Part shown: in pieces, positions 11,054 through 18,904 of the stretch
Layout: every line of letters starts with the position of its first letter
Numbering within the stretch: the first letter of the stretch is position 1
Assembly: GCA_022823505.1 (NCBI GenBank)
Contig: JAJEIA010000008.1
Coordinates: forward strand, 1 to 64,000
Source of the DNA: Dehalococcoidia bacterium
GTDB lineage: Bacteria; Chloroflexota; Dehalococcoidia; Lucifugimonadales; UBA3495
Direction: 5' to 3'
Length of the DNA: 64,000 nt
Position numbers and translations under genes: made by a program
Notes under the pieces: model-generated
What the model was told of the DNA's origin: nothing
What the model saw: the letters and a program-made list of their open reading frames with translations, nothing else
The model's database searches: none

Positions 11054-11905
11054 TCAGGCCGGCTTGACGCACAGATACTGCGCCCAACCGAGCTCGCCGT
11101 TGTTGATGGCGTCCACCGTCTTCATGTAGGCGTCCGTCAGGTAATCGAACCGGTCCTGGTAACCTTCCGGGCCCTCGGCAATGGACGCCAGCTTGGAAAG
11201 GTAGGTGTAGCTACGGGCCAGGTGTTCTGACAGGTCGCGGGCCTGCAACACCTGGAAGCCTGCTTCGACCAGCGAGTCCATGTAGGAGTAGAAGCTGAAG
11301 TCGGTGTCGAACAGCAGGCGATCGTAGACGAACTTGCGCGCTGACTCGCTGATGTTCGGGGTCGGCTTGGTCAGATCGTCGAAGATGAACTGTCCGCCCG
11401 GCTCGAGGACGCGGTAGGCCTCCTCCAGAACCTTGACCTTATCCGGCACATGGTAGATGGTGGCCTGGCTCCAGACGTGGGTGAACGTACCCTCGGCGAA
11501 GGGGAGATCGGTGGCCGACGCCTTCTCAAAAGCGATCTTGCCAGTGAGGTCCGGAGCATTCTCCATGGAAGCAACGGCGTTGGCGATGCGAACTCCGCTG
11601 AGGTCGATCCCCGTCGCCCTGGCGCCGGTGTTTCGGGACACCCAGATTACGTTGGTGCCGTTGCCGCAGCCCACGTCGAGCACGTGGGAAGTGGCTTTGA
11701 TACCGGAGTATTCCACCATCAACTCGTTGAGGCGGATGCCGGCGGAAAGGAATTCTTCACGGATGTGGTCCTGGCCCTTCGCTTCTCCGTCGAAGACGCC
11801 CCAATGAACGCTGCCGTCGGCGTCCCAGATGGAACGATAGATCACATCTTCGGCGTCGTAGTACTCCTCCGTCTCCTGCTCCGAAAACCGGTGCCCGGTT
11901 ACCAT
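11054..11905 (-). CDS. SAM-dependent methyltransferase, small-molecule type, MT2
   Basis: The 283-residue protein starts at the ATG at 11905, which has AAAGGAG upstream. SAM motif I is VLDVGCGNGTNVIW, followed by GIDLSGVRIANAV; the WSQATIYHVPDK block resembles glycine/sarcosine/dimethylglycine and sugar O-methyltransferases. It is a clear paralogue of MT3, sharing stretches such as VYDRLLFDTDFSFYSYMD and the ends GELGWAQYLCVK / EELGWAQYLCVK. It lies 35 bp downstream of MT3 and 28 bp upstream of MT1. In the setting of panD, an amino group of beta-alanine or a derivative is a reasonable guess for the acceptor. This remains inference. Confidence 0.82.
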   Translation of the reverse strand: MVTGHRFSEQETEEYYDAEDVIYRSIWDADGSVHWGVFDGEAKGQDHIREEFLSAGIRLNELMVEYSGIKATSHVLDVGCGNGTNVIWVSRNTGARATGIDLSGVRIANAVASMENAPDLTGKIAFEKASATDLPFAEGTFTHVWSQATIYHVPDKVKVLEEAYRVLEPGGQFIFDDLTKPTPNISESARKFVYDRLLFDTDFSFYSYMDSLVEAGFQVLQARDLSEHLARSYTYLSKLASIAEGPEGYQDRFDYLTDAYMKTVDAINNGELGWAQYLCVKPA

Positions 11906-11940
11906 ATACAGCTCCTTTGGTGATTTTGATGGTGTTGCGT

Positions 11941-12801
11941 CTACTTGACGCAGAGGTATTGGGCCCAGCCCAGTTCTTCGTTGTGCACGGCCCTGACCAT
12001 TTTCAGGTAGGCGTCGGATAGCGCCGCGAACCGTTCCCGGCGTTCCGGGTCGCTGCCGGCGGCCGCCATTTGCGAGAGGCACGAGTAGCTGCGGGCCAGG
12101 TGTGCGGACAGATCCCGGGCTTCAAGCACCCTGAATCCGGTCTCGCGCAGGGCGTCCATGTACGAGTAGAAGCTGAAGTCCGTGTCGAACAGCAGCCGGT
12201 CGTAAACGAACGTGCGCGCCTCTTCGCTGATATCGGGTTTGGGCTTGGTCAGGTCGTCAAAGACCATGACCCCGCCTGGTTGCAGCACCCGGTAGGCTTC
12301 CGCCAGCGTTTTGATCTTGTCCGGAATGTGATAGATGGTGGCCTGGCTCCATACGTGGGAGAACACGCCATCCGCGAACGGAAGCTCGGTGGCCGAAGCC
12401 TTATGAAACTCCATGCGTGGCGCCAAATCGGGAACGCCGCCCAGGGACTCGATAGCGTTGGCGATGCGCACGCCGCTCAAGTCGATACCGGTGACGTGGG
12501 CCCCGGTGGCGCGACACAACCAGGTGGCAGTGTTGCCGTTGCCGCAACCCAGATCAAGGACCCGTGCCGAAGAATCAATGCCGGAGTTTTCCAGCATGAT
12601 GTCATTCAGCCGGGAACAGGCGGCCAGGAAGTCCTCGCGGACAGCTGGGCCAGAGCCCGGTTCTTCCGGGGAGTTGAACACTCCCCAGTGCAGGGAGCCC
12701 TCCGCGTCCCAGAAGGAACGGTAGAGGGCGTCCTCGGCGTCGTAATATTCTTCGGTCTCGCGCTCAGAAAAGCGCGACGGGTTCCGGCTGGGGTTCGGCA
12801 T
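11941..12801 (-). CDS. SAM-dependent methyltransferase, small-molecule type, MT3
   Basis: The 286-residue paralogue of MT2 has motif I VLDLGCGNGNTATW, GIDLSGVRIANAI and WSQATIYHIPDK. I place the start at the ATG at 12801 (MPNPSRN) so that the N-terminus lines up with MT2. This start overlaps the last 38 bases of panD in another frame, which suggests translational coupling. The N-terminal block YYDAEDALYRSFWDAEGSLH is shared with MT2 and may form the acceptor lid. Two closely related enzymes plus MT1 would suit successive methylations of one substrate. No methylated product can be assigned from the sequence. Confidence 0.82.
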   Translation of the reverse strand: MPNPSRNPSRFSERETEEYYDAEDALYRSFWDAEGSLHWGVFNSPEEPGSGPAVREDFLAACSRLNDIMLENSGIDSSARVLDLGCGNGNTATWLCRATGAHVTGIDLSGVRIANAIESLGGVPDLAPRMEFHKASATELPFADGVFSHVWSQATIYHIPDKIKTLAEAYRVLQPGGVMVFDDLTKPKPDISEEARTFVYDRLLFDTDFSFYSYMDALRETGFRVLEARDLSAHLARSYSCLSQMAAAGSDPERRERFAALSDAYLKMVRAVHNEELGWAQYLCVK

Positions 12802-13153
12802 ACATTGAACCTTCGATCCACTCCAGGAATTTATTGTTCTCGTCGACCAGGACCATGCGGGGGTCCACCGGTTCGTCGGTGACCTCAAAAGCGAGGATTA
12901 TGAGGCAGTCGCGCTCCTGACACAGCCGGGCGGCCGCGCCCTGAACGGCGATGGTTCCGCTGCCGCGCTCTGCCGGCAGGGCATAGGTTTCCCACCGAGC
13001 GCCGTTGTTGATATTCAGCACCTGAACCTTCTCGAAGGCGATGATGTCGGTCTGTTCCATCAGGTCGCGGTCGATGAGGATGCTGCCCACGTAACCCAGG
13101 TTGGCGCTGGATACCCAACAGCGATGGATCTTGGACCTTAGAACTTCTCTCAT
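12764..13153 (-). CDS. panD: Aspartate 1-decarboxylase (pyruvoyl type)
   Basis: The 129-residue protein matches PanD in length and sequence: MREVLRSKIHRCWVSSANL, the self-cleavage pair Gly23-Ser24 in YVGSI, NINNGARWETYALPAERGSG and VQGAAARL. Ser24 should become the pyruvoyl group after cleavage. The enzyme decarboxylates L-aspartate to beta-alanine in the cytosol. Residues after about 110 form a short extra tail. GAGGAG precedes the ATG at 13153. No panB or panC is nearby; instead three methyltransferases follow in the same direction. The beta-alanine may therefore be destined for something other than pantothenate. Confidence 0.93.
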   Translation of the reverse strand: MREVLRSKIHRCWVSSANLGYVGSILIDRDLMEQTDIIAFEKVQVLNINNGARWETYALPAERGSGTIAVQGAAARLCQERDCLIILAFEVTDEPVDPRMVLVDENNKFLEWIEGSMYAEPQPEPVALF

Positions 13154-16269: not shown

Positions 16270-16298
16270 TTGCCCTACCACCTGCCAAATGCTATATT
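16270..16298 (+). promoter_or_regulatory. Promoter of the GreA-fusion gene
   Basis: TTGCCC (16270-16275) and TATATT (16293-16298) are 17 bp apart, 49 bp before the TTG start at 16348. Confidence 0.55.
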
Positions 16299-16347
16299 GA
16301 CCGGAGTTTGCAGCCTGAGCCTGCGCCAAAACCGGAGGGATAAACAG

Positions 16348-17166
16348 TTGACCAACGACCAGCACCTCTCGATTTCGGAAGGGATCAGTAGGTTTGTAGA
16401 ACACCTAAAAGATAGCAAGCAGGCGATGCAGGGCCAGCAGGAACTGTTGCGTTTCCAGGCCAGGATCGGGAAAGACAAGGCGCTTGCCACGCTTCATGCA
16501 ATAGAGGTCGGCGAATACGCCAAATGGACCACCGAGAACGTGGAAGACCCCGCGTCAAGGCTCGATCCTGTAAAGAAATTCTTGACCTTTGCCAACAAGC
16601 GCGGCTGGACTGAGATCAGCCTGGCACGCTATGCGGCGGCTCCCCGGCGCAACCGCCGGCGGTTCGCGGCCGGGGATGCGGGCGCACGGGCGGCGGGAAC
16701 CCCCAGCGCGCGGTTGAGCCAGGAGCGTCACACCGAGCTGCAGGCTGAATTGCAGCGCCTGCGCGAAGAGGTTCCTCAGATACGCGAAGCAATCCGGTTG
16801 GCGCGCAGCGACGGAGACGTGCGGGAAAATGCCCCGCTGGACGCGGCCCGCGAGCAACAGCAGTTGACCGAACGGCGCATCCGGCAGTTGGAGAATGACC
16901 TGGCCAACGTCGAAATCGTGGACGCGGCAAACGCTGACACGGAAAAGGTGGCCATTGGGTCCCGGGTCACGCTGCACGATGTGGCTTCGCAGCAGCAGCG
17001 GGTATTTACGCTGGTGGACGTGCGCGAGGCGGACGTGTCGGCCGGGAAGATCTCGACGGTGTCGCCCATCGGGCAGGCCCTGATGGGACGGAGCGCGGGT
17101 GAAGAAGTGACGATCACGACGCCCCGGGGCGCCGTGGAGTACCGGATCGAGGGTATCGGAGGATAG
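16348..17166 (+). CDS. GreA/GreB-type elongation factor with N-terminal recombinase-like SAM domain
   Basis: The 272-residue protein starts at TTG 16348 with GGAGGGA 8 bp upstream. Residues about 5-95 are helical (EGISRFVEHLKDSKQ ... DPVKKFLTFANKRGWTEISLARY) and resemble the core-binding domain of tyrosine recombinases. A basic linker (RRNRRRF) follows. The C-terminal 150 residues are a full GreA: coiled coil with acidic tip SDGDVRENAPLDAAREQQ, then the FKBP-like domain VAIGSRVTLHD ... SPIGQALMGRSAGEEV. GreA enters the RNA polymerase secondary channel and triggers cleavage of backtracked RNA. The fusion may add DNA contact. Similar fusions occur, as I recall, in other Chloroflexota. Confidence 0.82.
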   Translation: MTNDQHLSISEGISRFVEHLKDSKQAMQGQQELLRFQARIGKDKALATLHAIEVGEYAKWTTENVEDPASRLDPVKKFLTFANKRGWTEISLARYAAAPRRNRRRFAAGDAGARAAGTPSARLSQERHTELQAELQRLREEVPQIREAIRLARSDGDVRENAPLDAAREQQQLTERRIRQLENDLANVEIVDAANADTEKVAIGSRVTLHDVASQQQRVFTLVDVREADVSAGKISTVSPIGQALMGRSAGEEVTITTPRGAVEYRIEGIGG

Positions 17167-17199: not shown

Positions 17200-17227
17200 G
17201 GGCGGGTTTTGCGACCCGCCCCTTTCG
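17200..17227. terminator. Terminator hairpin between GreA-fusion and peroxiredoxin genes
   Basis: GGGCGGGT and ACCCGCCC form an 8-bp stem with loop TTTGCG, followed on the plus strand by CTTTCGTTT. It lies between convergent genes, 34 bp after the GreA stop and 3 bp after the peroxiredoxin stop. Confidence 0.65.
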
Positions 17228-17229
17228 TT

Positions 17230-17697
17230 TCAGCCGTTGATTTCGGCCACTGCCTGCAGGATCGTTTCCGGATCCGGAAGCGTCCCCGGCTGGTACGTCT
17301 CTCGGTACCGGATCACCCCCTGCGGATCGACTATGATCACGGCTCGGGTCCCGGCCCCCCGCTCCTCGTTCCAGAGGTCGTAGGCGGTGGTTACCTGGCC
17401 CTTGGGATGCCAGTCGGAGAGTTCGGGATAGGGCAACCCACCCATGGTGGTGGTCCAGGCCCGGTGGGCGGCTACGTGGTCACAACTGATGCCCAGCACC
17501 TGGGCATTCAACTCCTGGAACCGCGGGTGCAAGCGGCGGAAGGAGGTGGCCTGGTCCGTTCAACCGCTGGTGAAGTCCAGGACGTGGAAGGACAGGACCA
17601 CGGTGTTGGTGCCGCGGTAGTTGCTCAGTGAGATGTCTCCGTCGTGGGGAGACGGGAGAGTGAAGTCCGGCGCGTTGTCGCCGATTTGACCTGGCAT
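17230..17697 (-). CDS. Peroxiredoxin (BCP/AhpC-type) with in-frame UGA at the peroxidatic position: putative selenoprotein
   Basis: From the ATG at 17697 (GAGGAG upstream) the frame reads MPGQIGDNAPDFTLPSPHDG, then VLSFHVLDFTSG, a TGA at 17560-17562 (codon 46), then TDQATSFRRLHPRFQ, and continues without a shift to the stop at 17230. BCP-type peroxiredoxins have DFTPGC-T at this place, with the peroxidatic Cys near 45. The UGA sits exactly where that Cys belongs, and homology runs across it: later landmarks are VLGISCDHVAAHRAW and VIIVDPQGVIRY. Total length with Sec is 155 residues, normal for BCP. The best reading is Sec insertion, giving a peroxide-reducing selenoenzyme. A Cys-to-stop mutation is the alternative. 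No clear bacterial SECIS stem was found by eye. Confidence 0.82.
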
Positions 17698-17764
17698 CTA
17701 GCTTCTCCTCGGTTGAGCCGGGCGGGCAGTATGCGTCGGCTGCCTCCCGGCGGGGTTGGGAGCG

Positions 17765-17770
17765 ATTATA
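17765..17770 (-). promoter_or_regulatory. -10 element upstream of the peroxiredoxin gene
   Basis: A perfect TATAAT lies on the minus strand 68 bp upstream of the ATG. The only -35 candidate, TTGCCC, is 19 bp away, so the promoter is plausible but not ideal. Confidence 0.4.
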
Positions 17771-17890: not shown

Positions 17891-18904
17891 TTGGACGTGG
17901 TATTTGACCGGGGGGTGTATCTCCCGGAAGTGGGATTGTGGCTGGATGCCCTGCGCAAGCAGGACACGTCGGTAATCTCCCACGCGCACTCCGACCACAC
18001 CGCGAGACATCGCCGGCCGGTGCTCACTCCCGGGACCCGGCTGTTGCTGGGCGAGTACCTGGATCGATCCGAGCCGGTGGAGCTGGATTTCGGGCAGACG
18101 CTGGATTTCCCGGACTGCACAATCACTCTCTATCCCGCCGGTCATTGCCTGGGATCCGCGCAAACCCTGGTCGAAATCAAGGCCACGGGAGAACGTCTGC
18201 TGTACACGGGCGATCTGAGGGTGCAGCCGTCGCCAATCAACGAGGGACACCAGCCGGTCCCCTGCGATGTGTTGGTAATCGAGAGCACCTACGGTCGCCC
18301 GGATTACGTTTTCCCGCCGCAGGAAGAGGCCATCGGCACGGCCGTCCGCGTGGTGGCGCAATGGATCGAGCAGGGAGCCGTGCCCGTCGTCATGGGCTGG
18401 AGATTGGGCAAGGCCCAGGAGGCTTTGTATCACCTGCTGTCGGCCGGTTTCCGCGTGGCCTGTGAGGACAGCGTGTACGAGATAGCGCAGAGATACGAGC
18501 AGGCCGGCGTGGTCTTTCCGGGCGAATACCGCCCTGGCAACGGGGAGTGCCGCGAGGGGGAGGCAATGCTCTTCCCGCCGGGCAGGAAATCACGAGAAAT
18601 GGTCAACCGGATCAAGCCGGAGCGTCGGCCGGTGCGTTACCTGGAGCTGACGGGATGGGCGGCGGGACCCGGTGTCAAGCCGTGGGGTCGCGGCCGGCCC
18701 GGCGACGCCAGCCTGCCGTACAGCGATCACGCGGACTTCAACGACCTGGTGGCTTACGTGGACACGGTGCGCCCCAGGCAGGTATACACCGTGTTCGGGT
18801 TCCCGGACCTGGCGGATCATCTGAGGCGGAAGGGCTACTCGGCAATCCACCTGGGGAAGAATGCCACGGAAGCGGACCGCGCGTTCCAGATGCCGCTGCT
18901 CTAG
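17891..18904 (+). CDS. MBL/beta-CASP-like exonuclease (mRNA 3'-end processing / ligase-associated type)
   Basis: The 337-residue protein starts at TTG 17891 (DVVFDRGVYLPEVGLWLDA). It has the metal motif SHAHSDH, AGHCLGSAQ, LYTGD and the late motif PYSDHADFNDL, which are conserved in the CPSF73-like and DNA-ligase-associated exonuclease group (COG1236 type). A beta-CASP-like insertion (VIESTYGRPDYVFPPQEEA...VMGWRLGKAQE) lies between motifs. It probably hydrolyses RNA or DNA in the cytosol using two zinc ions. No ligase or helicase gene is adjacent, so the ligase-associated repair role is not supported by context. The upstream peroxiredoxin gene is divergent. Confidence 0.78.
   Translation: MDVVFDRGVYLPEVGLWLDALRKQDTSVISHAHSDHTARHRRPVLTPGTRLLLGEYLDRSEPVELDFGQTLDFPDCTITLYPAGHCLGSAQTLVEIKATGERLLYTGDLRVQPSPINEGHQPVPCDVLVIESTYGRPDYVFPPQEEAIGTAVRVVAQWIEQGAVPVVMGWRLGKAQEALYHLLSAGFRVACEDSVYEIAQRYEQAGVVFPGEYRPGNGECREGEAMLFPPGRKSREMVNRIKPERRPVRYLELTGWAAGPGVKPWGRGRPGDASLPYSDHADFNDLVAYVDTVRPRQVYTVFGFPDLADHLRRKGYSAIHLGKNATEADRAFQMPLL

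Follow-up and report, generated by a model that had tools for sequence, protein, structure and literature searches.

Peroxiredoxins that carry selenocysteine (Sec) within a TxxU motif have been known since 2001, as cited in PMC13188914, and were also recovered in the Sargasso Sea and GOS selenoproteomes (PMC1088965, PMC2398784). They fall under PF00578/COG1225, with PrxU of Eubacterium acidaminophilum as an example, and their PxxxTxxU motif has been called highly conserved (PMC13188914). Two groups of peroxiredoxins are told apart by the position of the Prx6 histidine: in Prx6 this histidine governs reduction by sulfide, and AhpE has Tyr or Phe in its place (PMC12697902). For insertion of Sec in bacteria, the published SECIS model specifies a loop of 3-9 nt, a stem of 4-16 bp, a distance of 16-37 nt from the UGA and an MFE of at most -7.5 (PMC13188914). 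In the open-access literature on SAR202 selenoproteins and on selenocysteine in Dehalococcoidia, we found no report of the protein described here.

We analysed a 64,000-nucleotide stretch of a Dehalococcoidia genome (the window) containing a gene that almost certainly encodes a one-domain Sec-peroxiredoxin from the AhpE/Prx6 side of the family, in which UGA46 would be decoded as selenocysteine via SelB and a downstream hairpin and the product would run a peroxidase cycle. The gene and its signals are as follows:

17230-17697, minus strand: predicted selenoperoxiredoxin gene, 155 codons plus a TGA stop
17560-17562, minus strand: UGA codon 46 at the peroxidatic position (DFTSGU-T), almost certainly specifying selenocysteine; UGA in 46 of 46 nearest sequences
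17705-17710, minus strand: ribosome-binding site GAGGAG, 7 nt 5' of the ATG, seen in the sequence; relatives have a similar upstream site
17765-17770, minus strand: TATAAT, probable promoter -10 box; TATAAT lies upstream in 13 of 13 genes compared, this one included

The minus-strand frame (17697-17230) starts with ATG and encodes 155 amino acids with a single internal TGA, at codon 46, as a preliminary description of the locus had noted. That description had also claimed homology across the TGA without a shift, and indeed the Pfam AhpC-TSA domain spans residues 5-131 unbroken (E 4.3e-36, 124 bits against a cut-off of 26). A promoter scan upstream of the gene found no full consensus promoter. 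The gene stands alone on the minus strand, flanked on the plus strand by a GreA/GreB-like gene at 16270-17166 and by one for a metallo-hydrolase at 17891-18904; most of the same-genus relatives looked at retain this order. Within the 298-residue GreA/GreB-like ORF the named domains occupy residues 149-296 only, the N-terminal half having no Pfam match, and a terminator-like inverted repeat (17200-17221), possibly used by both, lies between the convergent GreA-like and peroxiredoxin genes. Elsewhere in the window (11054-12888, minus strand), two similar adjoining methyltransferase-like ORFs appear by eye to be a tandem duplication.

A search for the protein covered 99 genomes: its own and others from its genus, family and order. 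In 46 of them (own included) there is a sequence with 60% identity or more, in each case with TGA at the aligned codon and no further internal stop, a pattern well outside what chance would give; the orthologues are 60-95% identical and occur in members of its family or order. Two same-genus genomes (G005 and G009), both about 85% complete, gave no close match. Downstream of the UGA, within-genus dN is 0.012-0.094 against a dS of 0.45-2.1, indicating strong purifying selection on the part of the protein beyond the apparent stop. As just one stop breaks the frame, a decaying pseudogene or a one-base sequencing error might be considered, but such an accident would have to recur as the identical UGA in every nearest orthologue, across independent genomes, and would have to coexist with a low dN/dS 3' of the UGA and a conserved promoter box and ribosome-binding site. 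The probability that we assign to it is negligible, the UGA in all 46 nearest sequences excluding error or decay, and the preliminary argument that this is not a dying gene is thereby upheld.

A tree built with 180 relatives places the gene in a 78-row clade (SH-aLRT 97) that has UGA throughout, save for one genome (G072) with TGT; aligning homologues at codon 46, a check that had been proposed, thus returns UGA across the family and one Cys form in the wider clade. This sole Cys member of the UGA clade (L088, G072:C15:35483-35932) also lacks the motif proline and has the histidine discussed below, and since its genome retains selA, a change from Sec to Cys there is the simplest reading. The named relatives in the tree are Chloroflexi/Dehalococcoidia MAGs, the protein of G018 being equal to that of "Chloroflexi bacterium SAT91"; the organism may belong to a SAR202-type marine lineage. 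UGA forms are also met in MAGs of Bacillota, Acidobacteria, Deltaproteobacteria, Beta- and Gammaproteobacteria, and others.

The window was said to hold none of the Sec machinery, which is correct: the Sec genes sit on other contigs of the genome. A search for them, as had been suggested, shows selA (544 bits), selD (373.8 bits) and a tRNA-Sec, the selC product (contig C26, 66.4 bits, anticodon TCA), and a partial selB, represented by a 324-aa open frame covering the N-terminal part and cut off where contig C120 ends (the match reaches 47822 of 47837). The selD gene contains one UGA, within a CAGUAAK motif, the known Sec site of SelD. More widely, SelB scores over the cut-off in 31 of 31 genomes searched, and SelD is matched in 48 of 50, with one UGA in 48 of 48. 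The genome G065 has no relative of the Sec-peroxiredoxin and likewise has neither SelD nor selA over the cut-off. In the window's own genome, selD (L051, G000:C40:43713-44636) is itself a selenoprotein gene with a GG-loop hairpin 3' of its UGA.

Because the identity of residue 46 is deduced rather than read directly, the UGA might instead specify a different amino acid, through natural suppression or a reassigned code. We consider this very improbable. UGA remains a stop, including in the peroxiredoxin gene itself, whose terminal stop is also TGA; the aligned residue of homologues is the catalytic Cys, in agreement with the earlier placement of the UGA at the peroxidatic Cys of DFTxGC-T; and the Sec pathway is present, with SelD having a UGA at its own Sec site.

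A candidate signal for decoding as selenocysteine lies 3' of the UGA and is formed by the following elements:

17512-17545, minus strand: SECIS-like hairpin with an 8-nt loop, from its own fold, family covariation and a synonymous-codon control
17545-17541 paired with 17516-17512, minus strand: lower helix of the hairpin
17537-17533 paired with 17524-17520, minus strand: upper helix of the hairpin

Counting from the U of the UGA (position 0), a family structure of 16-20/44-48 and 23-26/38-41 is open to most orthologues, and the window's own sequence has a register-shifted hairpin (17-21/46-50 and 25-29/38-42, loop UUGCACCC) with a fold energy of -15.7 kcal/mol. Taken alone, this hairpin is not significant against dinucleotide shuffles (z -0.56). 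Across 45 distinct sequences, 87.2% of cells are paired against 79.9% in shuffles, 29 cells are changed on both sides, as compensatory changes, against 11.6 +/- 2.3, and covariation scores 0.247, with 0.124 +/- 0.012 in shuffles; 0 of 500 shuffles match these values, and slid structures are only 25-50% paired. The covariation comes mostly from alignment columns 18/48 and 27/39. As the segment is coding, we redrew synonymous codons as a control, under which the inner and outer helices, paired at 83% and 84% in the real sequences, fall to 60% and 59%, with no more than 67% in any of 500 draws. Along the gene, a folding excess is confined to windows whose start lies 0-36 nt from the UGA (mean z -2.04, -1.22, -1.26), and the folding z of the UGA family is -1.76 against -0.35 for Cys paralogues (Mann-Whitney p about 1e-7) and -0.27 for the other Cys homologues. 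RNAalifold, run on the 45-row alignment, did not return the hairpin and gave only a 4-bp helix that shows no covariation; support for the structure therefore comes from the named-pair counts and codon-level controls.

Set against the bacterial SECIS model (PMC13188914, Fig 2A), the hairpin agrees in its 8-nt loop, stem of 5, distance of 27 nt to the loop and energy (-16.4 in this comparison), but differs in that its loop has no G in the first two positions, and no structure of this sequence with a loop of 9 nt or fewer satisfies the loop-G rule. A scan with the published constraints (loop of at most 9 nt, G required) fails to discriminate, accepting 16/46 of the UGA family, 12/24 Cys sequences of the same order and 31/51 Cys sequences of other taxa. 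As a positive control, the same genomes have a stem with a GG-containing loop after the selD UGA, at nearly equal distance, unlike the peroxiredoxin hairpin, whose loop lacks the G. The preliminary description found no convincing SECIS by eye; the hairpin is weak in the single sequence and lacks the loop G, but in the family it is conserved with compensatory changes, and the CCGC/GCGG stem dismissed as weak belongs to its upper helix. With the conserved UGA and the Sec genes, this hairpin supports the original proposal of a putative selenoprotein.

The AF2 model of the protein (pLDDT 96) predicts a peroxiredoxin fold, its best solved match being Mycobacterium tuberculosis AhpE (1xxu, TM 0.94, 35% identity), which a profile search also ranks first (4.7e-45). 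The alignment shows no variation at Thr43 or Arg118. Peroxiredoxins of the BCP/PrxQ type have their resolving Cys at +5, a position that is Thr here and Cys in 0 of 72 clade rows, so the protein is not BCP/PrxQ, and its initial labelling as BCP-type has to be replaced, AhpE being nearest by profile and fold and the histidine being of Prx6 type. Three features set it apart from standard peroxiredoxins, located at two places:

17581-17586, minus strand: His38-Val39, a Prx6-like His at -8 and Val in place of the PxxxTxxC proline
17482-17484, minus strand: Cys72 codon (GISC), the protein's only Cys, +26 from Sec; candidate resolving residue

M. tuberculosis AhpE (MtAhpE), a one-Cys peroxiredoxin, shares with our protein the nearest fold and sequence profile and the lack of a +5 resolving Cys, but has Cys rather than Sec, a Pro, Phe at -8 and no +26 Cys. 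Where AhpE has Tyr or Phe, there is His38 here, eight residues before the peroxidatic residue as in Prx6-type peroxiredoxins (PMC12697902). We assume this to be the Prx6 His, from the Prx6 motif and the H39 mutants in that same study. Unlike Prx6, the protein is AhpE-like in sequence and length, lacks the Pro and has Sec. It also has no counterpart of the C-terminal extension of Prx6.

With described Sec-peroxiredoxins the protein shares the AhpC/TSA domain, a peroxidatic UGA and TxxU, here TSGU (PMC1088965, PMC2398784, PMC13188914), and the remark that Sec at such a site is known from other peroxiredoxin-like selenoproteins was well founded. It scores 71 bits against the NCBIfam PrxU model, far below the cut-off of 270, and Val replaces the Pro of PxxxTxxU (PMC13188914); lacking this proline, it is filed as a variant and not as a standard PxxxTxxU member. 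The replacement extends through the lineage, the position being Val, Ile or Leu in 72/72 UGA-clade rows examined, against Pro in 21/24 Cys paralogues of the order and in 51/51 Cys homologues of other taxa, a set gathered by patterns away from the active site and hence not selected for Pro. Of the 72 clade rows, 67 have His at -8 and 60 have Cys at +26. Overall the proline is absent in 81/105 Sec rows against 3/75 Cys rows, an association that stays an observation only, since just 1-2 independent pairs differ on the tree and a sign test gives no significance.

On the reading we favour, the ribosome would pause at UGA46. With Sec-tRNA(Sec) and the hairpin immediately 3' both bound, SelB would decode the codon as selenocysteine, and translation would then run on to the second TGA. 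By analogy with the family, the U46 selenolate would attack a peroxide held by Thr43 and the conserved Arg (R118), yielding a selenenic acid. There being no resolving Cys at +5, recycling would probably proceed via Cys72, as a selenenylsulfide, or via a small thiol or sulfide. In the predicted secondary structure, C72 terminates strand 65-71, which in this fold adjoins the strand that runs to the active site. The same selenoprotein could also follow a one-Cys, AhpE-like cycle, with Cys72 uninvolved and an external thiol reducing the selenenic acid, to which we give a little under an even chance: the nearest solved fold is that of the one-Cys MtAhpE and 12/72 clade members lack the +26 Cys, whereas Cys72 is the protein's only Cys and none of the near orthologues listed (L001 to L069) has lost it. 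A broader proposal, possible but in our judgement unlikely, is that this is a lineage-wide subfamily of distinct catalytic design in which Sec has replaced Cys so completely that the PxxxT proline, almost universal elsewhere, has been lost, a Prx6-type His gained and a new +26 Cys made resolving, served by a class of SECIS without the loop G.

The same genome also encodes a Cys peroxiredoxin paralogue (L108, G000:C88:54114-54572, FTGVCTTEMC), so the Sec enzyme is not the only peroxiredoxin there. The order also has another peroxiredoxin-like group, only distantly related (L101, L103, L105, L109, L110, L112), which has FYxEDxTPGU/C with UGA and Cys forms mixed and offers a further place for studying Sec/Cys exchange.

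What is new is a widespread variant, extending across the lineage, that has the His and Cys but not the motif proline; we found no report of it in the open-access literature searched. It represents a selenoprotein retained across a large set of uncultured Chloroflexi related to Dehalococcoidia, one that standard-code annotation would end at residue 45 or divide in two, and its hairpin provides a comparatively well-supported SECIS case outside the published loop-G rule. The Cys form in G072, with selA kept, together with the missing proline, makes a natural test of what Sec brings to a peroxiredoxin and of which active-site residues are dispensable.
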